A DNA stretch of 64,000 bases, taken from assembly GCF_001690195.1 (NCBI RefSeq), contig NZ_LZGM01000070.1:62001-126000 (forward strand), read 5' to 3'. Position 1 is the first letter of the stretch; each line of letters opens with the position of its first letter. The notes under the pieces are model-generated. The model saw only the letters and a program-made list of their open reading frames with translations, ran no database searches and was not told the DNA's origin. The DNA comes from Gilliamella sp. wkB108. Lineage in GTDB: Bacteria > Pseudomonadota > Gammaproteobacteria > Enterobacterales > Orbaceae. Both the position numbers and the translations under genes were made by a program. Below are positions 14,806-59,795 of this stretch, one piece after another.

Positions 14806-15080
14806 GAGCAGGGATCTATGCCTTGCTTAATTAATTCGCGTGCTTCGTCACGTTGTTTTCGCGCTTGTTGTAGTGATGTTTCTGGATATTTACCGAAAGA
14901 TAATAATGTCTCTTTATTCGATATGAGTTTTTTATATTTAAATCGCCATAATTTAGCTCCCGACGATTTGACTTACAAAAAAAGACACCCACCGTCAAAA
15001 TACTTTTTATCCTTACCATTGGCTTTTAATGCTTTTATTTGTGCATCAGTCAAAGGGGTAGTTTTAATAGCCGTTTTTCA
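14806..15080 (-). pseudogene. Truncated P4-type integrase (fossil of a third element)
   Basis: The minus strand encodes about 90 residues matching the N-terminus of the satellite integrase at 22024-23274: TTPLTDAQIKALK, an arm-binding-domain stretch VKSSGAKLWRFKY, and QQARKQRDEARELIKQGIDP. A run of 65+ bp is nearly identical at the DNA level (14806-14875 against 23013-23082). The start codon is missing, an in-frame TAA interrupts the reading near residue 31, and similarity ends abruptly at GIDP. The catalytic domain is gone. This is the right-hand remnant of an earlier element in the same tRNA site. Confidence 0.85.
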
Positions 15081-15147: not shown

Positions 15148-15282
15148 TTGTAAATGTACCTTACAGATGCTTGCAGAATAGTAAAATAGACTTTAAGCCT
15201 TGTTTATACTGGTTTTGATGTGCTTTAAAGGATTTTAAAGAATATTACTGAATATTGAATTGGTGCAGTGGTCGGACTTGAA
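15148..15282. repeat. Duplicated int-att leader with decayed att remnant
   Basis: This stretch is a diverged copy of 23336-23472, the DNA between the satellite integrase start and its att site. It ends in a 3'-tRNA-Leu remnant at 15261-15282, with one base deleted and one or more substituted relative to the tRNA. It marks the right end of the fossil element and the left att of the satellite. Confidence 0.85.
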
Positions 15283-15336
15283 AAGCATTGCTTAATTCCT
15301 TTTTGAAATTGTGTTTTTTGTTTTTTATAATTTATT

Positions 15337-15359
15337 CGTATAACTAAACGTATAACTAA
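15337..15359 (+). repeat. Left arm-type integrase sites (pair)
   Basis: Two copies of CGTATAACTAA at 15337-15347 and 15349-15359, 12 bp apart. The same pair recurs at 23304-23326, just inside the other end of the satellite. Paired sites flanking both att ends suggest arm-type binding sites of the satellite integrase. Confidence 0.6.
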
Positions 15360-15418
15360 AACAAAAAATTACCCCATAAATTAGATATTATTATCCTGAC
15401 ACACAAAAGCATAAAAAT

Positions 15419-15500
15419 TAAAAAAATTGGGTTAGCGTTAAAATGAAAGGAAGTGGATGGTTTGGATGACTAAAATCTGTAGAAATTGACCCTCCCCCCA
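15419..15500 (-). other. cos-like sequence 1 in satellite
   Basis: About 80 bp closely resemble prophage positions 42588-42668, the gap between terS and HNH. A 22-bp block (15429-15450 against 42595-42616) is identical, followed by matches through GGTTTGGA.GAC, GTAGAAATT.ACC and a C-rich end. It has the same orientation as the prophage copy. HK97-type phages place cos beside terS/HNH, so this is a candidate packaging-site mimic. Confidence 0.7.
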
Positions 15501-15522
15501 TAAAAATAAAATTTTATAAAAA

Positions 15523-15627
15523 AGTGTTCACGGTGTTCACTATTTCTTTTAAGCCTTATTTTAAAAGGCTTTAGACGGTGAACACTTTAGGATTTACTAT
15601 TCACAAGTGTTCACTTTAGGTGTTCAC
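15523..15627. repeat. Iteron cluster 1 (P4 type I-like), putative replication site
   Basis: Five copies of (A/G)GTGTTCAC or its complement GGTGAACAC lie at 15523-15531, 15532-15540, 15577-15585, 15606-15614 and 15619-15627. Phage P4 alpha protein binds GGTGAACAG-type iterons in ori1 and crr. The alpha-like gene ends just downstream at 15681, so this is a likely alpha-binding locus (ori or crr). Confidence 0.75.
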
Positions 15628-15632
15628 TAAAT

Positions 15633-15660
15633 AAAAAACCGCTCAAATTAAGCGGTTTAT
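15633..15660 (-). terminator. Terminator after primase gene
   Basis: On the minus strand AAACCGCT-loop-AGCGGTTT is followed by a T run, 20 nt past the primase stop codon. Confidence 0.8.
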
Positions 15661-15680: not shown

Positions 15681-18050
15681 CTAGCTAGGTTCTTCTGCTC
15701 TTGGTAGCCAATCCTGACTAGTATAGGTATTAATCTCTACGTTTGTCCTCATTCCTTTATTTGATCTTTTACGGATATAATTTTTACCGTTTTCTTTCAT
15801 TGCATAATTAAGTGATGTACCAAATTGTGTGAGCGATAAAGGGTTGTTTAAGCCTGTATTGCGTATATATTCAATATAAGCATGATACAAATATCTTCTT
15901 GGGTTAAAGGGGGTGATCCCCAAACCTCCCATAAACATCCCATTAGGATAATCAAGGGCATCAAGATAACTACAAAAATCGACTAGATGATCAGATTCGC
16001 GTTTAATAGCGGTTGCTTCCTCTGACTGTTGTTGCTTGTGTAGTCTTTCTTTTGCTTCTATAGGATTAGTAAACTCATTTAATAGTAATCTGACAATAGA
16101 GGGGAGTTCTTGCTCTATTTTGCTGACCAAATTTAAATCTCGCTCTTTTTCAGGGATAACCTCGCCAAAGTGAAAGATTACTCTGCGCCGAGATATACCG
16201 CCGTTACGCTCGTTAAATCGCATTGCTTCGTTATTTATTACCAATACCACAGCAGGGATTTTACAGGAATAGGGTTGCTTGTGTTTTGGGTCTATTGCGA
16301 CTTCATCACCACCGGTAATTGCTTTTAAACCTGCACCACTGCCCATGTAGCGCGGTTGGTCGGGTAATATAACCAATGAATACCCCACGATTAAGGCTCT
16401 ATCTCTTGCCTTCTCTAAAGAGTCCATTGTGCCTATTACGGTATTACTTTTACCAGATAACATGGTCGCGATTTCAGCAAACACACTTTTACCGCTACCG
16501 CCTGCGCCTGTAACTTCTAGGAACAATTGCCAGTCATGTCGATTGGCTAATATCATATATAGCGAAGCAAGGATATTTTTAGCTTTATCCTGATTACCTG
16601 ATACTCTTTTTAGCCATTTAGTAAAATTCGGGGCGTGAGTTTCAAAAGATTCATTTTCCTTGGCAGGGTAGTAATCAATATTGTTATTGACTAATAGCCA
16701 ATCTTGTTTATTGTGTGGTCTAAAGGTTTGGCTTTTTAGCTCATATACCCCATTTCTAAAGCAGATTAAATCTTTTTTAGGTATTCCCATTATGGGCAGT
16801 GATAGCCTGAGCGATTCAACCGCCGAGCTTATCCTTAAGGGGTTAAATGGTTCGCCTGATTGGGTAAATAAATCGGCTAACGTTCGCATTAACACTTTAT
16901 CGCTGATAGGTTGCCATACATTATCTTGATAGTGATAGATTTCATCTGTTCTTAGGTTAATCGCGAGATTATTACCGTAATATTGTTTTAACAGGTCAGC
17001 CCGTTGACTGGATGCCATTTGCGATAAGTTCATGGTGGATAAATCTTTTTGCATGTTATGGTTTGTTATGATTTGTAGCTCAGGTTTTATAAGGTTTGCA
17101 TTAAATGAAGCTGAGGTTTTCTCAAGTCCAAATTGTTGCCTGTAATCGTCCCAATCGGCTTTGAAATCCGTTTCAGGTATCGAGTAATAGCCATTGATTG
17201 CTTGAGCTGTTTCTATCGCTTTTTCTTTCCCTGTGTTTTTGTCATTACCTATATCATTATCACCTGCAATGATGATTTTAGCGGTAGGATTGATTTCACG
17301 AACAGCCTTAGCTACATGAATAAGATTACCTGCGTCAATGGCTGATATAACAATAGACCGATAGCGGAATTCCGCTATCGATATCCCTGTGGCTAAGCCC
17401 TCACAGATAATAATCTCATTATGTGAGCGCAATTTTGCACATACTTCCGCAGGTCTGCTCAAAATTGAGCCGACTAAAATAAAAGCTCCTTTTTTATTTG
17501 AGCCTTTCATTAAATGCTTACTGCCGTCTGATTCAATAAACTGTGCGCCTGCGTATTCATTATGAAGATTCAGCATAGGCGCAAAAATGCGCCCGTTATC
17601 CAGTAAAGGTAAATCAAAGGTTAACCCTTTCTTGGTGAGGTATTCAGATTGCCCTAATGATGTTTTAGAGAGTAAATATTCGACTTTTTTACATACGTGA
17701 TTTTCTGGTATGTTGTTATTATGCAACTGTTCAGAATCTATCTTTTTAAATATGGTTTTTTCTCGTATTTGGTTGCTCTGATTAGATAAATTTAGGCATT
17801 CCGTCACTTTGATTGATGCTTCTTTAGCACTACAATTAAAATAGTTCTTAATCAGCTCTAAGCCGTCACCACTACCACATTGATTACAAATATAAGTACC
17901 TCGCCCATTTTGATTATCAAACCGAAATCTATCTTTACCACCACATATAGGACAAGCGCAATGCTTGCCACTACCCACTTCAATGCCTAATGAATAAAAG
18001 ATATAGTCCCATTTATCTATTGCTTGGGCTGTAATTTCACTTATTTTCAT
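15681..18050 (-). CDS. P4 alpha-type primase/helicase
   Basis: A 789-residue protein, close to P4 alpha (777). Domains in order: a zinc-binding primase finger (CPICGGKDRFRF...CNQCG, residues ~37-61), a Toprim-like segment IIICEGLATGISIAEF near 213-228, and a C-terminal D5/SF3-type helicase with Walker A GAGGSGKS near 507, a Walker B-like VILPDQPRY and PAVVLVINNEAMRF sensor region. P4 alpha primes DNA, unwinds it and binds its origin iterons; the iteron clusters at 15.5 and 21.7 kb fit this. It is the last gene of the minus-strand operon with two small upstream genes, 10 bp from the nearest. Confidence 0.92.
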   Translation of the reverse strand: MKISEITAQAIDKWDYIFYSLGIEVGSGKHCACPICGGKDRFRFDNQNGRGTYICNQCGSGDGLELIKNYFNCSAKEASIKVTECLNLSNQSNQIREKTIFKKIDSEQLHNNNIPENHVCKKVEYLLSKTSLGQSEYLTKKGLTFDLPLLDNGRIFAPMLNLHNEYAGAQFIESDGSKHLMKGSNKKGAFILVGSILSRPAEVCAKLRSHNEIIICEGLATGISIAEFRYRSIVISAIDAGNLIHVAKAVREINPTAKIIIAGDNDIGNDKNTGKEKAIETAQAINGYYSIPETDFKADWDDYRQQFGLEKTSASFNANLIKPELQIITNHNMQKDLSTMNLSQMASSQRADLLKQYYGNNLAINLRTDEIYHYQDNVWQPISDKVLMRTLADLFTQSGEPFNPLRISSAVESLRLSLPIMGIPKKDLICFRNGVYELKSQTFRPHNKQDWLLVNNNIDYYPAKENESFETHAPNFTKWLKRVSGNQDKAKNILASLYMILANRHDWQLFLEVTGAGGSGKSVFAEIATMLSGKSNTVIGTMDSLEKARDRALIVGYSLVILPDQPRYMGSGAGLKAITGGDEVAIDPKHKQPYSCKIPAVVLVINNEAMRFNERNGGISRRRVIFHFGEVIPEKERDLNLVSKIEQELPSIVRLLLNEFTNPIEAKERLHKQQQSEEATAIKRESDHLVDFCSYLDALDYPNGMFMGGLGITPFNPRRYLYHAYIEYIRNTGLNNPLSLTQFGTSLNYAMKENGKNYIRKRSNKGMRTNVEINTYTSQDWLPRAEEPS

Positions 18051-19533: not shown

Positions 19534-19734
19534 TTATGCCGCCTCGCGACGTTCAACTTTGCGAGATTCAAGCCAAGAATAAATCTCATCAGCTCGATAG
19601 CCAACACGGCGCAATCCTATTCTAATTTTCTGGGGAAAGGTTTCGTCTTTCCGTTCTAGCGTATAAAGACTAGTGTCACTTTTGAAGTGAAGTAAGGCTT
19701 TTACTTCTTTTTTGGATAGAATTTGATTGGTCAT
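19534..19734 (-). CDS. AlpA/Vis-like MerR-type regulator
   Basis: A 66-residue protein with the AlpA pattern: LSKKEVKALLHFKSDTSLYTLERKDETFPQKIRIG...RVGYRADEIYSWLESRKVERR. This is the winged MerR-like fold of AlpA and P4 Vis, which act as excisionase and/or transcription factor at satellite promoters. It is alone on the minus strand with non-coding DNA on both sides. Confidence 0.9.
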   Translation of the reverse strand: MTNQILSKKEVKALLHFKSDTSLYTLERKDETFPQKIRIGLRRVGYRADEIYSWLESRKVERREAA

Positions 19735-21415: not shown

Positions 21416-21465
21416 CAATCAAAGTAATTATATTGCTTCTAACGTGTCCGAAAATTCTTCAAGCC

Positions 21466-21540
21466 AAGTAAGGAGGGGGTTGTAAATTTCTACAACTCTA
21501 ATCTTTCTACACCGCTCACCCTCATTTTTGTGCAAAACCG
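21466..21540 (+). other. cos-like sequence 2 in satellite, inverted
   Basis: Read on the plus strand this matches the minus strand of prophage 42595-42672: GTAAGG..GGGGG, TGTAAATTTCTA.AACT, CTT.C and ACCGCTC.CCCT in the same order and spacing. It is opposite in orientation to cos-like sequence 1. It matches the prophage best at the C/G-rich side, while copy 1 matches best at the other side. Confidence 0.6.
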
Positions 21541-21730
21541 CGAATTGAAATAATTTTTTTTAGAATTCATTTATTCATTACCACCATATTAATAAGTATT
21601 TAATCGTCCTTTGTAATATTAAGATCGCCTTAAAATATAACTTATTGATTAATAACAGTAGTGATTTCATGGTGTTTAATAATATCTATATAAATCAAGT
21701 TGATAACTACGGGATCAAGATTATATTTAA

Positions 21731-22023: not shown

Positions 22024-23274
22024 TTATTGATTGACTATTTTTAAGTTACGGTTACCGGATAATGAGACATTTCCTTGGCTTGCTTGCTCTACAAAATCAC
22101 CCCACCAATCAAGCATAATGCGCCGTTGTTCTAAATAGGTAGCGCGGTTATAGGCTCGTCTTACGCTATTAGTATCGACGTGAGCAAGTGCCGCTTCAAT
22201 AATATTAGGGTCAAAGCCTTGATCATTTAATATAGTACTTGCCAAAGCCCTTAATCCATGTGCGACTAACTTGCCTTTGTAACCCATGCGCTTAATTGCC
22301 ATATTTGCTGTACTGCTATTCATTGGCGCGGTATATGGTGGTTTCATGCTTGGGAATATATGCTCTCTATGCCCACTTATAGGCTTCATGATTGATAATA
22401 TCGCCATAGCTTGCTTATTGAGCGTGATAGTATGCTCTCGTCTCATTTTCATTTTTTCGGCAGGAATAATCCATAAGCAATTATCAAAATCAATTTCCTG
22501 CCATTTAGCTCCTACTGCTTCACTTGGACGTGTCATGGTTAATAATTGCCATTCAATAGCACAACGCGTCCGCAATTCGATTCTAGCTATAGCAAGAGTT
22601 TGCATAAACTGCGGTAATTCAGTTGGATTAATGGTTGGTTGATTTTTTACTTTTGGGCTGTTAAATACGTCAGTGATTTTAGCTAGAGGATTATTATCGA
22701 TAATACCCATATTGACAGCATAATACATTATTTCATTGATTCTCCTGCAAACTCTCTTCACTGTCTCATATTTATTATTGTTATTTAATGGTTGTAATGC
22801 ATTAATAGTTTTAATAGCTGTTACTTGATTTATGGGAATATTTTTTATATAAGGGAAAACATGAATTTCTAATGACCGCCAAGCCTTTTTTAAAGTTTTT
22901 TCTTCTAATCCTTGTTCTGTTTTGAATTTAAACCACCGTTCAGCCATGGAATAGAATGTATTGCCGATTGCTTCTTGCTTAAGTTGTTCTTGTTCCGCTT
23001 TATGTTCTTGGGGATCTATGCCTTGCTTAATTAATTCGCGTGCTTCGTCACGTTGTTTTCGCGCTTGTTGTAGTGAAACTTCGGGATAACTACCAAAGCT
23101 AATTAATGAGCGGATTTTATTTATAGGACGATAATAGTTAAACCGCCATATCTTAGAGCCATTAGATTTAACTAAAAGATATAAGCCGTTGCCGTCTGAT
23201 AAAGAGTAATCCTTATTCTGTGGCTTGGTTGTTCTTATTTGAGTGTCTGTTAATGGGGTAGTTATACGTGCCAT
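22024..23274 (-). CDS. P4-type tyrosine integrase of the satellite
   Basis: A 416-residue P4-family integrase. The N-terminal DUF4102-type domain (TPLTDTQIR...LSDGNGLYLLVKSNGSKIWRF) is followed by a core-binding domain and catalytic domain. Catalytic residues visible are Arg in MTRPSEAVGAKW, HGLRALASTIL (H-x-x-R), LAHVD and the Tyr in RRAYNRATYLEQR. It starts 175 bp from the right att, facing away from it, as P4-type integrases do. The paired arm sites at 23288-23326 overlap its promoter, so integrase probably autoregulates. Confidence 0.95.
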   Translation of the reverse strand: MARITTPLTDTQIRTTKPQNKDYSLSDGNGLYLLVKSNGSKIWRFNYYRPINKIRSLISFGSYPEVSLQQARKQRDEARELIKQGIDPQEHKAEQEQLKQEAIGNTFYSMAERWFKFKTEQGLEEKTLKKAWRSLEIHVFPYIKNIPINQVTAIKTINALQPLNNNNKYETVKRVCRRINEIMYYAVNMGIIDNNPLAKITDVFNSPKVKNQPTINPTELPQFMQTLAIARIELRTRCAIEWQLLTMTRPSEAVGAKWQEIDFDNCLWIIPAEKMKMRREHTITLNKQAMAILSIMKPISGHREHIFPSMKPPYTAPMNSSTANMAIKRMGYKGKLVAHGLRALASTILNDQGFDPNIIEAALAHVDTNSVRRAYNRATYLEQRRIMLDWWGDFVEQASQGNVSLSGNRNLKIVNQ

Positions 23275-23287
23275 AGTTATACGATTT

Positions 23288-23326
23288 TTAGTTAGATGTT
23301 ATCCGTATAACTAAGCATATAACTAA
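23288..23326. repeat. Right arm-type integrase sites
   Basis: CGTATAACTAA at 23304-23314 and CATATAACTAA at 23316-23326, 12 bp apart, plus an inverted variant TTAGTTAGATG at 23288-23298. They match the pair inside the left satellite end. Confidence 0.6.
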
Positions 23327-23448
23327 AAAATCTGATTGTAAATGTGCATTACAGATGCTTACAGAATAGTAAAACAGGCTTTAAGCCTTGCTTTTACTAG
23401 ATTTTATGTATTTTAAAGGGTTTTAAAGAATATTACTGAATATTGAAT

Positions 23449-23507
23449 TGGTGCCAGTGGTCGGACTCGAACCGACACGCTTTTAAGGGCGGCGGATTTT
23501 GAATCCG
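23449..23507 (-). repeat. att repeat: tRNA-Leu 3'-half (attL of prophage, attR of satellite)
   Basis: A 59-bp exact copy of 59709-59767, covering CCA end, T-arm, variable arm and the 3' side of the anticodon stem-loop of tRNA-Leu. Similarity stops at the anticodon loop, so no functional tRNA is made here. It is the junction between satellite and prophage. Confidence 0.95.
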
Positions 23508-31026: not shown

Positions 31027-33227
31027 TAATTTGCCCCCGCTTTAGAATATGGACCCCATCCAACATCAACTTTCGTATTGAACCCTTCTGACTCCTTAGT
31101 TTTTTTAACAGTAGTGCCATGAGGTATATTCTCAAATTTAACGACTAATTCACTATTCAGTGGTTTGCCCTTTGAAAAGGAGTTATCTGGTATGTGAGGT
31201 GTCGAATAGTATGGATACTGCATTGCAGGACTTGAATAATACGGATATTGTGACATTGTTTTGTCTACTCGTTTTTGTAACTGAGTTGTATCAACATTTA
31301 TTTTGATATTTTTTTCACTGCTACCAAATAACCAATTCCATGCATCGATTAACGGTTGTATACCTGATTTAACACTATCCCACAACCCGCTAAAAAACTT
31401 TTTCACTTTATCCCATGCTTTTGGGATCGCGTCACCAGCCACCTTAAACGGCTCAATGAAGACATCCAGAATTGGCATAATAAATGGTTTTATAGTTCCC
31501 CATAAACCACAAAAAAACTTACTGACTGTTTCCCATGCTTCTGCAATTTTCTTACCACCCACTTTGAACCCTTCAATAAAAAAATCGATAATTGGCATAA
31601 CAAATGGTTTGATAAATTCCCAGAGATTCCTAAAAAATTGACTAACAACACCCCATGCATTTGCAATTAAAGTAGCCCCCACTTTGAACCCTTCAATAAA
31701 AAAATTAATGATCGGCATAACGTAAGGCTTAATGACTCCCCAAAACCATTGGAAAAACTGAACTATTTCATCCCAGTATTCAATAATCAAACCTGCCGCT
31801 AATGCTATTCCTGTCATTACAAGGCCTATTGGGTTTGCTTTTAACGCAGTGTTAAACCCAATAACACTTAACTTTGCAATTTTAAATGCTTTTGATAAAC
31901 CCAACTGAGCGATTGCTAAGGCCTTTGTTGTAAGCTTGACACCTTTCAATATTCCATTAAAGACAGTAATACTTGTCGAAAGTGTACCAACAATAATATT
32001 TACACCTGCACAAGCAACCCTTAATCCTATTAAACCAGCAACCGACATAGCCACCATTTTTACTAGTTCTGGGTTTTCTTGGATAAAATGGCCGAATTCG
32101 ACAATTAATGGCTGTAGCTCGTCCAGTAATTCTGTAAATACCGGCAATAATGCATCCCCAATAGATAAACTGACATCAGTTAATGCGTTATTAAAAAGTT
32201 GTAATTTGTTTGCTGTAGTGTTAGATCTAGATTCGTACTCTTTCTGCATTGAACCAGCATACTGTGATGCATCACTAACTCGGTTGAAATTTGTTTTTAA
32301 TAATTCTAGATTGTTGAGTAACGGCGATATAGCAGCAACGCTTTCTTTACCGAATAAAACAGTTAAAGCTGCAGACTGCCGATCCTTAGACACCTGTCCT
32401 AGAGATTCCAGCACTTTCATAATCGTCCCTTCTGCATCTTTTTGCATTCCTTTAGCTATTTGAGTTGATGTAAATCCCAGTTGCTGTAATGCCTTCTGCT
32501 GTTTTGCTGTTGCGGCTTTACCTGCTGTAAGTGTTAGCATAAAGTTTTTAATACCTGTTGCTGCCTGATCAGCATTTGTACCTGTTGCCATCGTTGTAGA
32601 ACTCAGCGCTGCCAACTTATCAGCACTAACACCTGAAATACTAGCTAGTGGACCTATTCGAGAAACAACATTTGAAATATCCCTGGCTGTTGCATTTTGT
32701 GTATTACCCAATAAATTAATCTTATCAGATAGTTCGACAACCTCAGTTTGTGTCATTTTTAGTGCTGTTCGCCATGTGGCCATTGTGCTACCAGCCTCTT
32801 CTGCGGTAGTATCAAATGCAATACCCATTTTTGTAGCATCTTCTGCAAACCGTAGCAAATCATCTTTCGGAATGTTTGCCTGTCCACCAGCTGCTACAAT
32901 AGACGCAATGTCTTTTGCCGCCATAGGCAAATGCAGCGACATTTCACGAATATCTTTCCCCATTTGCTTAAATTGCTCCGGTGTGTCGAAGTCAACAACT
33001 TTTCTAATATCAGCCATGACTTCTTCATACGCCATTGCATCTTTTACACCTTTTACAAACGGCGCAGAAATAGCAAGTCCGGTAACGGCATCTTTCAATC
33101 CAAGTTTACCAAACCCCGATTTATTCATGGTTTTTTGAAACTTTTCAAGTTTGCCTTTCATTGTATTTAATTGCGGCGACAGTTTATCAACACACGTCAC
33201 TACAGCTTTTAAATTAAAGCCTGCCAT
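31026..33227 (-). CDS. Tape measure protein (TP901 family)
   Basis: A 733-residue protein with the TP901 core near residues 70-330 (MAYEEVMADIRKVVDF, MGIAFDTTAEEAGSTMA) and hydrophobic segments near 400-480. The C-terminal third contains about four tandem units of roughly 45 residues built around W..IKPFVMPIIDFFIEGFKVG. The tape measure sets tail length and passes through the membrane during infection. Its ATG shares a base with the stop of the frameshifted chaperone. Confidence 0.92.
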   Translation of the reverse strand: MAGFNLKAVVTCVDKLSPQLNTMKGKLEKFQKTMNKSGFGKLGLKDAVTGLAISAPFVKGVKDAMAYEEVMADIRKVVDFDTPEQFKQMGKDIREMSLHLPMAAKDIASIVAAGGQANIPKDDLLRFAEDATKMGIAFDTTAEEAGSTMATWRTALKMTQTEVVELSDKINLLGNTQNATARDISNVVSRIGPLASISGVSADKLAALSSTTMATGTNADQAATGIKNFMLTLTAGKAATAKQQKALQQLGFTSTQIAKGMQKDAEGTIMKVLESLGQVSKDRQSAALTVLFGKESVAAISPLLNNLELLKTNFNRVSDASQYAGSMQKEYESRSNTTANKLQLFNNALTDVSLSIGDALLPVFTELLDELQPLIVEFGHFIQENPELVKMVAMSVAGLIGLRVACAGVNIIVGTLSTSITVFNGILKGVKLTTKALAIAQLGLSKAFKIAKLSVIGFNTALKANPIGLVMTGIALAAGLIIEYWDEIVQFFQWFWGVIKPYVMPIINFFIEGFKVGATLIANAWGVVSQFFRNLWEFIKPFVMPIIDFFIEGFKVGGKKIAEAWETVSKFFCGLWGTIKPFIMPILDVFIEPFKVAGDAIPKAWDKVKKFFSGLWDSVKSGIQPLIDAWNWLFGSSEKNIKINVDTTQLQKRVDKTMSQYPYYSSPAMQYPYYSTPHIPDNSFSKGKPLNSELVVKFENIPHGTTVKKTKESEGFNTKVDVGWGPYSKAGAN

Positions 33228-39368: not shown

Positions 39369-40560
39369 CTTTGTTGTTATCCTGTGGTTTAGTAGTCATG
39401 TTCATTGGGGTTAGATAGATATCGCCGCCATCACGAGGATTGCGCTCTTCTAAATCACGGCACTCGTTCGGTGATAAAATGCCCCAGTTGATACCTGTTG
39501 CGTATGAGTCGTAGCGAGATTTCATGTCACCGCGCAATAACGCCCCGACGTTAAACTTGGCATAAAATTGACCTCGTTTTTCTTTACTAACGAGTCCAAT
39601 GTTGATGCGTTGCTCAATTCGTGTTAGATAGGGCACTAATGAGTAATTAACAAACCCCATACCGAGATTTTCAATATTATTGAATGTGGCCCTGTCGGTG
39701 TTTTGGACCATATGCATCGGCACGCGAAATATTCGGCAAATTTCCTCAAGTTGAAATTTTCTGGTTTCTAAAAACTGGGCATCTTCGGCAGACATACTGA
39801 TGTTATTCCACTTAAGACCCATTTCTAATATCATGGGTTTGTGTGCATTTTCTAGCCCTTGATGCTGTTCTTGAAAGTTTTCTTTTAGTCGCTTGTATGC
39901 TTCATCAGTTAATACCTGATCGGTTTGTAATACACCGCTTGAAACTGCGCCATTACTAAATAGTCGCGATCCGTGTTCTTCAGTGGCTAAACCAAGCCCT
40001 ATAGCGTGCCTTGCATAACTAATCGGGCTTAAGCCAACCAATGAATCCATTGAAAATGTGCGCACGTGCCAAATTTCATCTTGAGAAAGCACATCACAAG
40101 AGCCATCAGGGAAAGTTACTTGATAAACAGGCTCCCATTTATCATTTAATTTCGGCTGCACACTACCGGGCAAAAGAGGGAGTAACTCAACAACTTCACC
40201 GAATACTTTGACTTTATATGCGTAAAAGTTACCACGTAAACACAGACAGCCGATCAGGTACTCCCAAAACTCTTGTGGGGTCATGTAGTTATTTGGCGCA
40301 ACATATAAAAGTGAGTACAGTTTTTCTTTGGGTGCTTTTTTGCGCCCGCTATCTGTTGCTTGATATAAGAAACATGGCAACATTCCGACAGATTCAGTTA
40401 ATACACGAACGCAGCCAAATACAGCAGTTAACTGCATAGCAAGAGCCGGACTAACCCTACGACCTGCATAGGTATCTAGCGAAAAACCTACATAATCAGA
40501 TAACTCTTGAGCGGTAGTAATAGATTTTTCTTTACGTTTAAATAAGTTAAATATATTCAT
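39358..40560 (-). CDS. Portal protein (HK97 family)
   Basis: A 400-residue portal: QLTAVFGCVRVLTESVGMLP near residues 44-63, NNYMTPQEFWEYLIG near 93, and NTDRATFNNIENLGMGFV near 283. The protein forms the 12-mer DNA channel at the capsid vertex. It starts at the terminase stop codon. Confidence 0.93.
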   Translation of the reverse strand: MNIFNLFKRKEKSITTAQELSDYVGFSLDTYAGRRVSPALAMQLTAVFGCVRVLTESVGMLPCFLYQATDSGRKKAPKEKLYSLLYVAPNNYMTPQEFWEYLIGCLCLRGNFYAYKVKVFGEVVELLPLLPGSVQPKLNDKWEPVYQVTFPDGSCDVLSQDEIWHVRTFSMDSLVGLSPISYARHAIGLGLATEEHGSRLFSNGAVSSGVLQTDQVLTDEAYKRLKENFQEQHQGLENAHKPMILEMGLKWNNISMSAEDAQFLETRKFQLEEICRIFRVPMHMVQNTDRATFNNIENLGMGFVNYSLVPYLTRIEQRINIGLVSKEKRGQFYAKFNVGALLRGDMKSRYDSYATGINWGILSPNECRDLEERNPRDGGDIYLTPMNMTTKPQDNNKDAK

Positions 40561-42077
40561 TATAATGACCGTATTCCTACGTTTAAGATGTGTTCTGATA
40601 AAGAGCTTTCTGATTCATCCTCTTTATTTGTCACGCCAAAAGCCATCGCCAAAGCCTGCATACCATCAATGCGACCAGTAGCTTTGTGTTTATCAAATTT
40701 CCTATTGTCAGCTTCATCTCTTGTTACCACAGCATTAGCGGCGCACATGGTCAGTATTGGGTGATTGCCATGACGAATAGTTCCATTTAAAAGTTCGTCT
40801 TCTAAAATAGATAAAGCTGGTGACATGTCCTTGAAACCCTGCCCAAATTTGACTAAAGGCGGATTAGCATTAATTCGCTCAAATTCTTTGATTAAAAAGT
40901 CAATGTGATATCGGTCAAAAGCAATGGCCGAGATATTGTATTCTTGGATGATTTCGTCCAACTCTTTAACCAGGTATTCATAATCAATAGATGCGCGTGG
41001 CGTTGTCCTTAGGTAACCCTGTTTTGCCCATACATCGTAAGGCACTCTGTCTCTTTTTGAACGATCATGTATGCCAACCTCTGTCGCCCAAAAATAAGGG
41101 TGAACATTCCAGTACCCATCGCTCGTTTTTGATATAACAACGAATGCGGTTAAGTCGTTCTTTTGGGATAAATCAAGTCCTGCAAAGCTGATAACATCTT
41201 CTGATGTTGGTTTAGCTGAGCATGATTCCCACACGTTGCGAGATACAAATGGACTAACAACCGATACTCGCTGATTTAGATTGAGATTTCGGAATTTATT
41301 TTCTTCAATTGGCATACGGTTTGCCGCATTAGCTAACCGCTTTAAATCATCGTAGGAACGGAATAATCCAAGTGCAGGATTAGCCGCATACCACGCTTTT
41401 TCATCAAGCACGTCAGCATCTTTTTCAGCAGCATAAACATGTGAAATGATATGCGGATCGTTAGAACTTTTAGCATCATCAAGCCATACACTGAATAAAT
41501 CAGCATCATTTGCAGCTTGGGTACTAATCGCAATAAGTAAAGGTTCTTTATGCGCGCCCTGTGAAGTAGTGATTGCGTCAACAAAATCACTTCTTGGTCC
41601 AACTATTTGTCCAACTTCATCCAGAATAGCAAGAATAGGCGATAACCCATGCGCGGTTTTACCATCAGCAGCCAATGCTTTATATTCAACATTGCAAAGC
41701 AAACCATAAAGCCTTTTGCCACTTGGTACGATTCTAACTATTTTTTGCAGTTCAGGGTTTAAGTTAACGATTTTAACCGCCAATTCAAACACAATTGATG
41801 CTTGATCTCGGCTCATTGCACCGCTGACGATCTGCGAATTTTGAACAGCTTCAGGACCAACTAAATGTGCTAACAATAACCCAGCAATTAAACCTGTTTT
41901 ACCGTTCTTTCTTGCAATACTGAGATATGCTGAATAAGTCCTGTTAGGGTTATCATAAATATCTAAAATAAACCGTTTTTGGAAATCAGCTAATTGCATC
42001 GGTTCGCCAAGATGCTCACCGTCAGGCACTCGGCAATAGTGCTCAATAAAAGCAATTACCTTTTCACCTCGTGTCAT
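40560..42077 (-). CDS. Terminase large subunit
   Basis: A 505-residue protein of the HK97/P27-associated class. Walker A-like SIARKNGKTGLIAGLLLA lies near residue 52, Walker B LAILDEVGQ near 143, and the nuclease domain begins FAGLDLSQKNDLTAF near 289. It cuts and pumps DNA. The neighbours (terS, HNH, portal) match known HK97-like gene order. Confidence 0.94.
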   Translation of the reverse strand: MTRGEKVIAFIEHYCRVPDGEHLGEPMQLADFQKRFILDIYDNPNRTYSAYLSIARKNGKTGLIAGLLLAHLVGPEAVQNSQIVSGAMSRDQASIVFELAVKIVNLNPELQKIVRIVPSGKRLYGLLCNVEYKALAADGKTAHGLSPILAILDEVGQIVGPRSDFVDAITTSQGAHKEPLLIAISTQAANDADLFSVWLDDAKSSNDPHIISHVYAAEKDADVLDEKAWYAANPALGLFRSYDDLKRLANAANRMPIEENKFRNLNLNQRVSVVSPFVSRNVWESCSAKPTSEDVISFAGLDLSQKNDLTAFVVISKTSDGYWNVHPYFWATEVGIHDRSKRDRVPYDVWAKQGYLRTTPRASIDYEYLVKELDEIIQEYNISAIAFDRYHIDFLIKEFERINANPPLVKFGQGFKDMSPALSILEDELLNGTIRHGNHPILTMCAANAVVTRDEADNRKFDKHKATGRIDGMQALAMAFGVTNKEDESESSLSEHILNVGIRSL

Positions 42078-42086
42078 AAAATTACC

Positions 42087-42566
42087 TTAATGTAATGGCG
42101 TAGCAAGCAATCCTAGCCCGTCATGTTTATCCATGTAAGCTCTTGCGTTTTGCTCATTTTTGTTGCGGTTTTGCTGATCTCTCGATTCGCCATTTGTGGC
42201 GTGAGAATGTATTTGTAGGTTTCTTTTTTGTGCTGCGACTAACCTACCCAGATCGGTTATTTGTTTATCAATGCGCTTAATCTCGTTCGGATTACGTTCT
42301 TCACCAACTTTTTCATTTTCGCTGGCTAGCTCTTTTCTTAATTCAAGTATTCTTAGCTGATTATTTGATAAATCGGCGCACTCGATAAGGTCCGAATCAG
42401 TCCACGAATCAAGAGCTTTTGATTTAATATTGGAATCCCAAAAAGGACGAGCTTTAGTTGATAATCCTGCGTAGGCTGGTGGTTCAATAGTGTTTTTTAC
42501 GGCATTGTCCATAGCTTTGATAGCTGCCGCAGTGCTATCAGAACGTGTTCTTTTCTTTGCGGCCAT
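42087..42566 (-). CDS. Terminase small subunit (P27 family)
   Basis: I choose the start MAAKKRTRSD at 42566, because TTAGGAACAT supplies a ribosome-binding site just upstream; the frame is open to 42638 but that part overlaps the cos-like DNA. The result is 159 residues. EPPAYAGLSTKARPFWDSN and LRILELRKELASE..., then QITDLGRLVAAQKRNLQIH fit the P27-type small terminase. It recognises the packaging site by family. Confidence 0.85.
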   Translation of the reverse strand: MAAKKRTRSDSTAAAIKAMDNAVKNTIEPPAYAGLSTKARPFWDSNIKSKALDSWTDSDLIECADLSNNQLRILELRKELASENEKVGEERNPNEIKRIDKQITDLGRLVAAQKRNLQIHSHATNGESRDQQNRNKNEQNARAYMDKHDGLGLLATPLH

Positions 42567-42587
42567 ATATGTTCCTAAAAAAAGTAA

Positions 42588-42668
42588 AAAAATCGGGTTA
42601 GCGTTAAAATGAAAGGGGACGAGCGGTTTGGAAGACAAAAAGTTCTAGAAATTTACCACCCCCTCCCC
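42588..42668 (-). other. Putative prophage cos/packaging site
   Basis: The gap between terS and HNH is short, conserved in the satellite twice (15419-15500 and 21466-21540) and has a G/C-rich block beside an AAATTTCTAGAA segment. HK97-type phages with HNH proteins carry cos here. The nicking position cannot be read from sequence alone. Confidence 0.65.
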
Positions 42669-43013
42669 TTACCTAGATAATTTATTATTAATCCAATGTC
42701 CACCAAACGGCATACCATTAACATCGCATCCTATCTCTGTGCCTATGTTCTCTATTCTCTGCTTGGTGCTTGAGTGGTGAGTGTTACACAGTCCTTGATA
42801 GTTTGATGAATCCCAAAACAATTTTTGCGCCTGTTTAATTCTTACTGGGTCTTTGGATATTAATGCTTGCTCTAACTTGTGCGGAATAATGTGGTCTACT
42901 GCGGTTGCGGGTTCATATCTACCCTGCTTTAAACACATAACACAAAACGGCTTGCGCTGTAGGTATGTTCGCCTAGCTTTACGCCAACGGGGGTTGTTAT
43001 ATACGTTTATCAT
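42669..43013 (-). CDS. HNH endonuclease (packaging-associated)
   Basis: A 114-residue HNH nuclease: CVMCLKQGRYEPATAVDHIIPHK (residues ~24-46) with the zinc Cys pair, and DSSNYQGLCNTHHSSTKQR (~71-89). In HK97-like phages it works with the terminase to cut cos. It stands next to terS with the cos-like stretch between. Confidence 0.93.
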   Translation of the reverse strand: MINVYNNPRWRKARRTYLQRKPFCVMCLKQGRYEPATAVDHIIPHKLEQALISKDPVRIKQAQKLFWDSSNYQGLCNTHHSSTKQRIENIGTEIGCDVNGMPFGGHWINNKLSR

Positions 43014-58387: not shown

Positions 58388-58609
58388 ATGAGCGAATCAA
58401 TTATATTAACTGATGATGAGTTACAATTATTAACAGGCAGGAAAAATAAAAGCCTTCAAATTAAATGGCTTAAAGAAAATAAATTTTGTTTTCATGTTAA
58501 TTTACTAGGTAAACCCATTATTCTACGCGCATCATTAAATCAAAAAGTAATAATTGAAAATAAGCAACAAGAACCAGATTTTGGAGCTTTAAATGGCAAG
58601 GAACCGTAA
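58388..58609 (+). CDS. DUF4224 protein before integrase
   Basis: A 73-residue protein: ILTDDELQLLTGRKNKSLQIKWLKENKF is the DUF4224 signature (residues 6-33). These usually lie just before phage integrases and may act as excisionase-type or regulatory factors. It overlaps the integrase start by 17 bp. Confidence 0.85.
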   Translation: MSESIILTDDELQLLTGRKNKSLQIKWLKENKFCFHVNLLGKPIILRASLNQKVIIENKQQEPDFGALNGKEP

Positions 58610-59615
58610 AGACAAAAAAGATAACATACTCCCCCCTCGTGTATCTAAAAACAAATACTCCTACTACTTAAAAACCAGAGAAAATAAAACAATTACGCTT
58701 GGTTCCGTTGGAATAAGCATGATAGAACTTTGGGCTAAATATGAAGGTGTAATAGCTGAACAAAAGGAAGTAATGACGTTTAGTAAACTTTGGAGTATGT
58801 ACTTAAAAAGTCCAGGATTTAATAAACTATCACCTCGGTCACAACAAGATAAGTTAAAAGGTGCTAAAAAAATATTACCGGTATTTGGAAATATAAACGT
58901 TGATAATATCAGACCAGAGCATATACGCCGATATATGGATATAAGAGGAGAGCAAAGCGAAGTACAAGCTAATCACGAATTATCATATATGTCCGTTGCT
59001 TTTGCGTGGGGATACGAAAGAGGATATTGTAAAATTAATCCTTGCACAGGAATTAAGAATTTCACAATCAAACCTAGAGATAAATATATCGACGATATTG
59101 AGTATTATACTATCTATGATGAAGCTATAGACATCATTAAAGTTGCTATGGAAATATCATATTTATGTGCAGCTCGGCAGGGTGATATATTTAATCTAAA
59201 GCATAACCAGATTCTAAAAGAAGGTTTGTATATAAAACAAGGTAAAACAGGAAAAAAACAAATCAAACAATGGACGGAAAGATTAAAGAAGGCTATTGAT
59301 TTAGCAACAAAACTATTTCCGCCATCTTCGTCTGATTCATTTGTTTTACTTAACCAGTCAGGAAGGAAGTTAATCCAAAAAACATTCAATTCATATTGGC
59401 TAGAAGCTAAAAGAGCCGCTGAAAAGAAATTAGGCAAAGAAATAAAATGTACATTCCATGACATAAAAGCCAAAGCTATTTCAGACTATGAAGGAGCAAC
59501 TAAAGATAAACAACTTTTTAGCGGTCACAAAACCGAAGCGCAAGTTAATACATATGACCGAAAAGTCAAAGTTACACCAACCTTAAATCCACCTAAAAAA
59601 GAAAATTTATTCTAA
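58593..59615 (+). CDS. Tyrosine integrase of the prophage
   Basis: A 340-residue integrase. An N-terminal basic part (RNRKDKKDNILPPRV) is followed by a SAM-like core-binding domain and a catalytic domain: Arg in YLCAARQGDIFNLK near 196, HDIKAKAISDYEG near 289 (H-x-x-K rather than H-x-x-R), GHKT near 311 and Tyr in NTYDRK near 320. It ends 93 bp from the tRNA, facing it. It is unlike the satellite integrase in sequence although both use the same tRNA. Confidence 0.93.
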   Translation: MARNRKDKKDNILPPRVSKNKYSYYLKTRENKTITLGSVGISMIELWAKYEGVIAEQKEVMTFSKLWSMYLKSPGFNKLSPRSQQDKLKGAKKILPVFGNINVDNIRPEHIRRYMDIRGEQSEVQANHELSYMSVAFAWGYERGYCKINPCTGIKNFTIKPRDKYIDDIEYYTIYDEAIDIIKVAMEISYLCAARQGDIFNLKHNQILKEGLYIKQGKTGKKQIKQWTERLKKAIDLATKLFPPSSSDSFVLLNQSGRKLIQKTFNSYWLEAKRAAEKKLGKEIKCTFHDIKAKAISDYEGATKDKQLFSGHKTEAQVNTYDRKVKVTPTLNPPKKENLF

Positions 59616-59708
59616 CTGTATATTCTAAGTAAATTCCAAGCTTGTTGTTTGTTTAACTGTTCAATAACAAATAAATAATCTATTGCATTGATTTAATTGA
59701 TATTTATG

Positions 59709-59767
59709 TGGTGCCAGTGGTCGGACTCGAACCGACACGCTTTTAAGGGCGGCGGATTTTGAATCCG
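59709..59767 (-). repeat. attR of prophage (within tRNA-Leu)
   Basis: The 59-bp segment identical to 23449-23507, from the CCA end to just past the anticodon. Confidence 0.92.
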
Positions 59768-59795
59768 CTGCGTCTACCAATTTCGCCACACTGGC
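59709..59795 (-). tRNA. tRNA-Leu (anticodon CAA)
   Basis: Reading the minus strand: acceptor GCCAGTG/CACTGGC, D-arm, anticodon stem GCGGA-TTCAAAA-TCCGC (anticodon CAA at 59759-59761), a long variable arm, T-arm GGTTCGAGTCC, discriminator A and encoded CCA. It corresponds to E. coli leuX, also an island hotspot. The prophage repeat covers 59709-59767. Confidence 0.95.

Follow-up and report, generated by a model that had tools for sequence, protein, structure and literature searches.

A Gilliamella satellite with putative cos sites for two different kinds of phage terminase

Satellites that mimic the cos site of a helper phage are known, and the cases described in the portions of the literature available to us carry one kind of cos per satellite. 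The closest are EcCICFT073 and the other Gram-negative cos PICIs (PMC6092414 and PMC6739421, both in part), which resemble the element reported here in their int-alpA-primase layout, their lack of a TerS gene, their two cos sites and their dependence on the helper TerS. EcCICFT073 itself has two cos sites with one lambda/phi80-type cut site, a cosB unlike that of its helper and a need for Rpp (same partial sources), whereas the satellite described below has a near-exact HK97-type TerS site and putative sites of two different terminase families. The cos SaPIs SaPIbov4 and SaPIbov5 also carry the cos of their helper (PMC6092414, PMC8569155), and two putative cos sites are attributed to SaPIbov4 (PMC6092414); they differ in being Gram-positive and, for SaPIbov5, in having the capsid-resizing gene Ccm (PMC8569155), and the available portions of these two papers hold no report of sites for different terminases. 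By the description in the accessible part of PMC6092414, the P4/P2 pair is similar in its P4-type primase, AlpA/Vis-type regulator and helper cos. In HK97, the minimal TerS site spans cos +15..+29 (CTAACCCGATTTTTT), with T16 and the G of position 21 as contacts and with an A-tract at 24-29 that the binding requires (excerpts of PMC11331095), and the overhang is a 10-nt 3' extension according to a figure legend of PMC9410871, the discussion of which gives 12 nt, apparently swapped with lambda. Among the matches listed in open-licence literature (titles and beginnings of abstracts), none described a satellite whose two cos sites differ in terminase family, lie in opposite orientations and are exchanged as cassettes, and none on satellites in Gilliamella concerned two cos types. 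We read the two-helper packaging suggested by our comparisons as belonging to a kind of cos satellite that is already known, the two-terminase variant of which was not found described.

The DNA analysed here (the window) is a stretch of 64,000 nucleotides from the bee-gut bacterium Gilliamella sp. wkB108, in which a satellite, at about 15.24-23.5 kb and with ~8.2 kb between its att copies, and a prophage of ~36 kb lie in tandem at a tRNA-Leu gene (Table 1). The satellite has the hallmarks of a Gram-negative PICI, namely int, alpA, a primase/rep module, small size and an absence of capsid genes. Its primase scored 104.3 bits against the P4-family primase model TIGR01613 (curated cut-off 108.7), and its Pfam primase and D5 domains exceed their own cut-offs. 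Genes such as psu and delta are typical of P4-type satellites; no member of the psu, delta or sid families was detected among the satellite ORFs scanned (those of at least 66 aa), which sets the element apart from P4. None of the scanned ORFs matched a terminase family either. Three ORFs have no clear function or family, and searches of these against defence families and the PDB returned nothing useful.

Table 1. Positions of the main features in the window.
Feature	Position	Strand	Basis
Satellite outer att	about 15244..15282	.	
HK97-type (type A) cos1 of the satellite, primase end, adjoining the attachment site	15413..15497	-	prophage cos match and cassette alignment with relatives
Predicted cos1 TerS-binding site (HK97 +15..+29), 14/15 as in HK97	15421..15435	-	PMC11331095 (in part)
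Projected 10-nt cos1 overhang CATCCACTTC, cut between 15450 and 15449	15450..15459	-	projection from HK97 left end
Likely iterons for replication, repeats of GTGTTCAC/GTGAACAC in the primase-cos1 interval	15500..15640	.	sequence; predicted function
Satellite primase-helicase (P4-alpha-like)	15681..18050	-	Zn_Ribbon_Prim, Toprim_3, D5_N, Pox_D5
Satellite AlpA regulator	19534..19734	-	PF05930
Satellite cos2 (type C), in the opposite orientation to cos1, next to integrase 3' end	21464..21560	+	
Projected cos2 overhang CGCTCACCCT	21513..21522	+	projection from left-half homology
Predicted type-C recognition motif GCAAAACCGCGAATTGAAAT, 19/20 as in the HNH-terS gap of three phages with P27-like TerS	21532..21551	+	
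Satellite integrase	22024..23274	-	PF00589 and arm domain
att common to prophage and satellite, copy of tRNA-Leu 3' end	23440..23507	.	95.6% to 59700-59767
Prophage TerL	40560..42077	-	phrog_9
Prophage TerS (from its ATG start), HK97 gp1 homologue	42087..42566	-	phrog_5601; PDB 8pop/6z6e
Prophage cos (type A)	42579..42663	-	phage matches and self-BLAST
Predicted prophage TerS-binding site, 15/15 as in HK97	42587..42601	-	sequence comparison (HK97 site from source seen in part)
Prophage HNH endonuclease, packaging-associated	42669..43013	-	phrog_2323
Prophage integrase	58593..59615	+	
tRNA-Leu, integration target	59709..59795	-	

A preliminary description of the window had proposed that a segment of ~80 bp in the satellite, which has no terminase, copies the gap between the HNH and terS genes of the prophage, that this gap is the packaging site in HK97-type phages, and that the copy is a cos mimic; the copy was confirmed, and its interpretation is supported at the level of sequence. 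Self-BLAST of the window aligned the two blocks (cos1 and the prophage cos) in the same orientation with 80% identity over 85 bp (E 2.7e-14), including the 22-bp identical core that had been pointed out, GGGTTAGCGTTAAAATGAAAGG (15429-15450 in the satellite, 42595-42616 in the prophage). The match scored 77.9 bits, which was reached by 0/200 dinucleotide shuffles of the satellite (best shuffle, 45.5 bits). A search of the whole host genome found the block in three places: cos1, the prophage (80%) and C122:8071-8190 (84%), the last adjoining a primase fragment.

Searching 50,697 phage records with the prophage block by blastn matched 40, and the 20 of these listed were mostly HK97-group coliphages (Escherichia/Enterobacteria phages). 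The block aligned with bases 2-36 of the HK97 (AF069529), HK022 and HK75 records, that is, with the start of the HK97 linear genome, the record of which begins GTTTGAATTTAACGCTAACCCGATTTTTTT and ends ...CGCCGCCAAA; the match fell near the other end in some records because these had been opened at a different point. The prophage block also has the expected placement between HNH (right end) and terS, a criterion that does not apply to the satellite, which lacks such genes. The prophage TerS matched PDB 8pop/6z6e with an E value of 4e-49, and in the alignment all eight of the DNA-contact residues checked are retained (K4, R5, R7, K96, K100, R107, R114 and R128). From these comparisons we conclude that the prophage copy is an HK97-type cos. 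Since the block matches the HK97 end, the minimal TerS site of the partly available source is present at 15/15 positions in the prophage and 14/15 in cos1, and the eight TerS contacts are retained, the sequence supports the reading of cos1 as a cos mimic.

The single change in the satellite TerS site, G22 to A, counts against this reading, and the retention of T16, C21:G and the A-tract at 24-29 for it; position 22 lies outside the contacts named in the available text of PMC11331095. The projected cuts (between 42616 and 42615 in the prophage and between 15450 and 15449 in the satellite) fall at the edge of the shared block and not deep within it, and the projected 10-nt overhangs are different (CATCCACTTC in the satellite, CGCTCGTCCC in the prophage); the difference between the overhangs counts against our preferred explanation. 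By comparison with HK97 (PMC11331095 and PMC9410871, both in part), the likeness extends to the site sequence, its spacing to the projected cut and the TerS contacts, and the differences are the overhang and the location of an HK97-type site in a satellite.

The satellite contains a second cos-like block, cos2, which the preliminary description had overlooked. Its left half is like that of the prophage cos and its right half is different. Compared with the prophage alone, cos2 gives a match of just 26 bp and 39.2 bits, which is within chance (7/200 shuffles reach 39 bits), and the support for cos2 as a putative packaging site comes from relatives and not from the prophage match. With the window's own sequence as the type-C search motif, GCAAAACCGCGAATTGAAAT was found at 19/20 positions in the HNH-terS gap of the Gilliamella prophages G019 and G020 and of the IMG/VR contig L161, and at 17/20 between the corresponding genes of Klebsiella phage ST899-OXA48phi17.2. 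L161 has a Terminase_4 (P27-like) TerS, unlike the HK97 protein, and the TerS proteins of G019 and G020 are 100% and 89% identical, respectively, to that of L161. No type-C TerS was found in the host genome, and cos2 is therefore without a resident helper, which counts against our preferred explanation.

Related Gilliamella satellites carry putative sites of three types, A being of the HK97 kind and B and C of the P27-like kind, with homology to HNH-terS gaps in three phage groups. Type B is a block that occupies the cos1 position in most related satellites. It corresponds to the HNH-terS gap of the prophage G016:C86 (73%, E 4.9e-7), whose TerS (TerS_B) is also Terminase_4-like but distinct; against the phage collection it gave nothing better than E 0.3, and it is linked to phages through IMG/VR as well. 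In that database the type-B motif had 24 matches, 22 followed by TerS_B and 2 in satellites, and the type-C motif had 15, 12 followed by TerS_C and 3 in satellites, including that of the window strain. The exact 22-mer type-A motif had 97 matches, and the 300 bp after 87 of them contain a TerS to which the window and HK97 proteins both match; one further match was the window strain's own satellite and nine lay too close to the end of the stretch to tell. One of these nine (L189) resembles a satellite cos2. The idea that the nine were physical cos ends was rejected, several records having simply been opened at the start of terS.

Allowing at most one mismatch, the type-A motif occurred in 8/394 genomes of the host order, all of them in the host family, and a reversed control gave 0; a scan at the level of the family found it in 10/44 genomes. 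A 19-mer scan of genome contigs returned 7 stretches, 3 being Gilliamella and one a contig opening with an HK97-like cos in a Paenochrobactrum MAG (possibly misbinned); the stretches L010, L011 and L013 were taken as chance because a 4-mismatch scan of a longer motif missed them. Loose type-A matches (5 mismatches) in L109 (729), L118, L121 (10950), L125 and L098 (15867) were likewise taken as chance and left uncounted. Several motifs were left unclassified, namely type-A motifs without a nearby TerS match (G013:C5, L026; G036, L277), type-C motifs outside a recognisable satellite (L270, L271, L272 and an extra one in G020) and variant motifs (L263, L273 and L276).

The comparison of relatives shows that the site types are swapped as cassettes of ~100 bp within a conserved backbone. 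When the cos1 regions of 4 type-A and 9 type-B elements were aligned, identity between the types was 0.92-0.98 over the 40 columns to the left, fell to 0.32-0.56 in the core, rose to 0.71-0.80 over the next 60 columns and was then about 0.5, with core identity within types being 0.77-1.0 for A and 0.91-1.0 for B. Trees of primase and integrase were built with FastTree from the longest tblastn piece of each element, stops being read as X. In the primase tree the B/C element L121 groups with the window element (A/C; support 0.94), inside a clade with L105 (1.0), so that cos1 types A and B are mixed in one supported clade and the cos1 type has therefore changed among close relatives.

The site itself appears to be modular at the cut. 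We aligned 11 A and 11 C sites, selected from those found but without the Klebsiella phage and the variant C sites, on the projected cut. Over the 40 bases to its left, A and C sites shared 63% identity (A sites among themselves 61%, C sites 78%), whereas the 22 bases to its right were 30% identical between types and 91-93% within them. In the A phage of G018 and the C phage L161, 40/40 left bases are identical and divergence sets in one base past the projected cut; the position of the C cut is supported and not proven by this, since it was placed by left-half homology. The left half, from the G-run to the overhang, would thus be common to terminase types and the right half would follow TerS; the comparison identifies the TerS-specific half of an HK97-type cos. 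We speculate that halves may be shuffled through the joining of compatible cohesive ends at the cut; ordinary recombination in the common left half would give the same pattern.

A relative of the primase, fragments included, is present in 27/35 genomes of the genus; TerS_A is found in 3 of the 35, TerS_B in 1 and TerS_C in 2. Two-terminase sites and cassette exchange could explain why satellites are far commoner than prophages with matching terminases. Both sites (given as cos1/cos2) were found in the window element and G028 (A/C), in G016 and G020 (B/A), in G003, G002, G034, G012 and G017 (B/C), and in degraded elements of G005, G025 and G024 (B/C; 4 mismatches in each G024 motif) and G021 (A/C). 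All 13 two-site elements (13/13) have two different types on opposite strands; heterotypy is partly built in, because B never occurs at cos2 and C never at cos1 among these 13, and a homotypic case could arise only as A/A, with ~0.5 estimated by chance. In the G020 stretch, a type-C motif lies 2 kb beyond cos1 in addition to the two sites, which counts against our explanation. Two IMG/VR contigs also have B and C motifs; as possible duplicates of these strains, they were left out of the count.

Some elements do not conform. Among close-group elements with both primase and integrase in the fetched stretch, 9/12 have both sites and 3/12 have cos2 with no recognisable cos1 (L113 and L116, type A; L124, type C), which counts against the two-site arrangement, as does the chance-level result for all three motifs in the distant elements L118, L119, L120, L122 and L125. 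In L123 the sole site is a variant B at cos1. Elements with only the cos1 side (L102, L107, L108, L126, L033, L128 and L276) or only the cos2 side (L263-L268, L273 and L274) are mostly cut by a contig end or decayed; for L108, integrase and cos2 were not found within the 16 kb fetched. Of the genomes with both a satellite and a phage type, only 2/4 show agreement between the two (G000 and G016), which also counts against our explanation: in G018 an A phage coexists with satellite pieces of types B and C, and in G020 a C phage with a B/A satellite.

These results point to a model in which the ~8.2-kb PICI/P4-like satellite borrows the packaging machinery of helpers through cos1 (HK97-type) and cos2 (the phage group with P27-like TerS), a reading that we regard as highly probable. 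Since cos1 holds an HK97-type TerS site and cut region, the terminase and HNH protein of the tandem prophage, or of a relative, should bind it, cut it and fill capsids, and either of the two kinds of phage could probably pack the satellite into its own particles. Induction of a helper would be followed by AlpA-driven excision of the satellite and its primase-driven replication to concatemers; the helper TerS would then bind cos1 on the concatemer, or a type-C helper cos2 instead, and TerL and HNH would cut the satellite cos for the DNA to be packed. In this way cos2 would give the P27-like-TerS group equal access to the satellite. The steps after sequence recognition are modelled on EcCICFT073 (PMC6092414 and PMC6739421, in part) and HK97. 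A head made for 36 kb would presumably take the 8.2-kb unit as multimers of about four. With two sites for unrelated TerS proteins, one satellite could therefore ride two phage lineages and re-tool by a swap of ~100 bp, and the choice of helper would become readable from about 100 bp of sequence. Whether this extends to a genus-wide family of two-helper satellites, with two inverted cos sites for unrelated TerS at fixed positions, exchangeable cassettes of three or more types and a modular cut, we judge to be an even bet.

The most serious competing view, which we hold to be possible but clearly less probable, is that cos1 works and that cos2, like the other heterotypic second sites, is a relic of a former helper and now unused. 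The missing type-C TerS in the host, the chance-level resemblance of cos2 to the prophage and the decay of several related elements all fit with this, as does the report that EcCICFT073 transfer needed only one of its two cos sites (PMC6739421, in part). It sits poorly with the 19/20 agreement of the window motif with each of three type-C phages, with a right half that is ~93% identical among 11 C sites and conserved across the cos2 of many satellites, and with the occurrence of types A and C at the same place in relatives.

It seems unlikely that packaging needs TerS to be redirected by a satellite protein resembling Rpp, which is the mechanism of EcCICFT073. Any of the three ORFs of unknown family could encode such a protein, but no sequence match to Rpp or TerS was found among the satellite ORFs in searches of families and PDB chains, a search that remote homologues would escape and whose PDB library may lack Rpp chains. 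Moreover, the EcCICFT073 mechanism goes with a cosB unlike that of the helper (available part of PMC6739421), whereas here the TerS site is kept.

We give little credence to the suggestion that the block is phage DNA which was captured, plays no part in packaging and persists by chance or through recent recombination. A satellite and a prophage in tandem could recombine, but the functional site is the best-conserved part of a block that has otherwise diverged, the block is retained in satellite relatives of genomes without a type-A TerS (G028, G008 and G021), and type-B satellites have the cos of another phage in its place and not a loss. The block does lie next to HNH genes in phages, but the idea that it is a homing target of the HNH endonuclease, or a relic of it, is the least credible of all, since the block coincides with the experimentally mapped cos and TerS site of HK97 (sources seen in part) and its right half tracks the type of TerS and not of HNH, the HNH proteins of the G018 (A) and L161 (C) phages being 96% identical.

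Several further observations were made on these elements. Just beyond the outer att of the satellite lies an integrase fragment (14811-15062; 64% to the satellite integrase), which is what is left of a third element of this tRNA-Leu array. A 30-bp repeat (90%) with paired short words flanks the att sites (15332-15361 and 23299-23328); the word exists in at least four versions among relatives (GTTATACG, GGTATACG, GGGACTA and GGGGGTAC), which look as if they were allele-specific binding sites of Int or AlpA. Within the prophage, a direct repeat (31379-31742; 72%, 120-bp offset) lies in a 733-aa ORF, perhaps a tail protein. The host genome (G000) has two further satellite pieces, one on C122 (L033) with a type-A cos beside a broken primase and one on C107 (L103), a primase piece in which no motif was found.

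In several sister satellites there is a gene for a small terminase-like protein (PF16677, GP3_package; L027:7207-7605, minus strand, with homologues in L106-L110, L264, L266 and L268). It adjoins cos2 in most of them, and no such gene was found in the window satellite; the sister elements might have a third packaging route. An ORF that appears by eye, from its motif, to be Fic-domain-like is carried as cargo between primase and cos1 in L042/L110 (G002) and L100:9143-10477 (G024). Finally, L100:3640-8865 (G024), next to a decayed satellite, contains a tandem array of six or more paralogous ORFs (274-275 aa; MPSKYRPQ...GWIGDLEKGKNYLT) that are conserved at the ends and vary in the middle.
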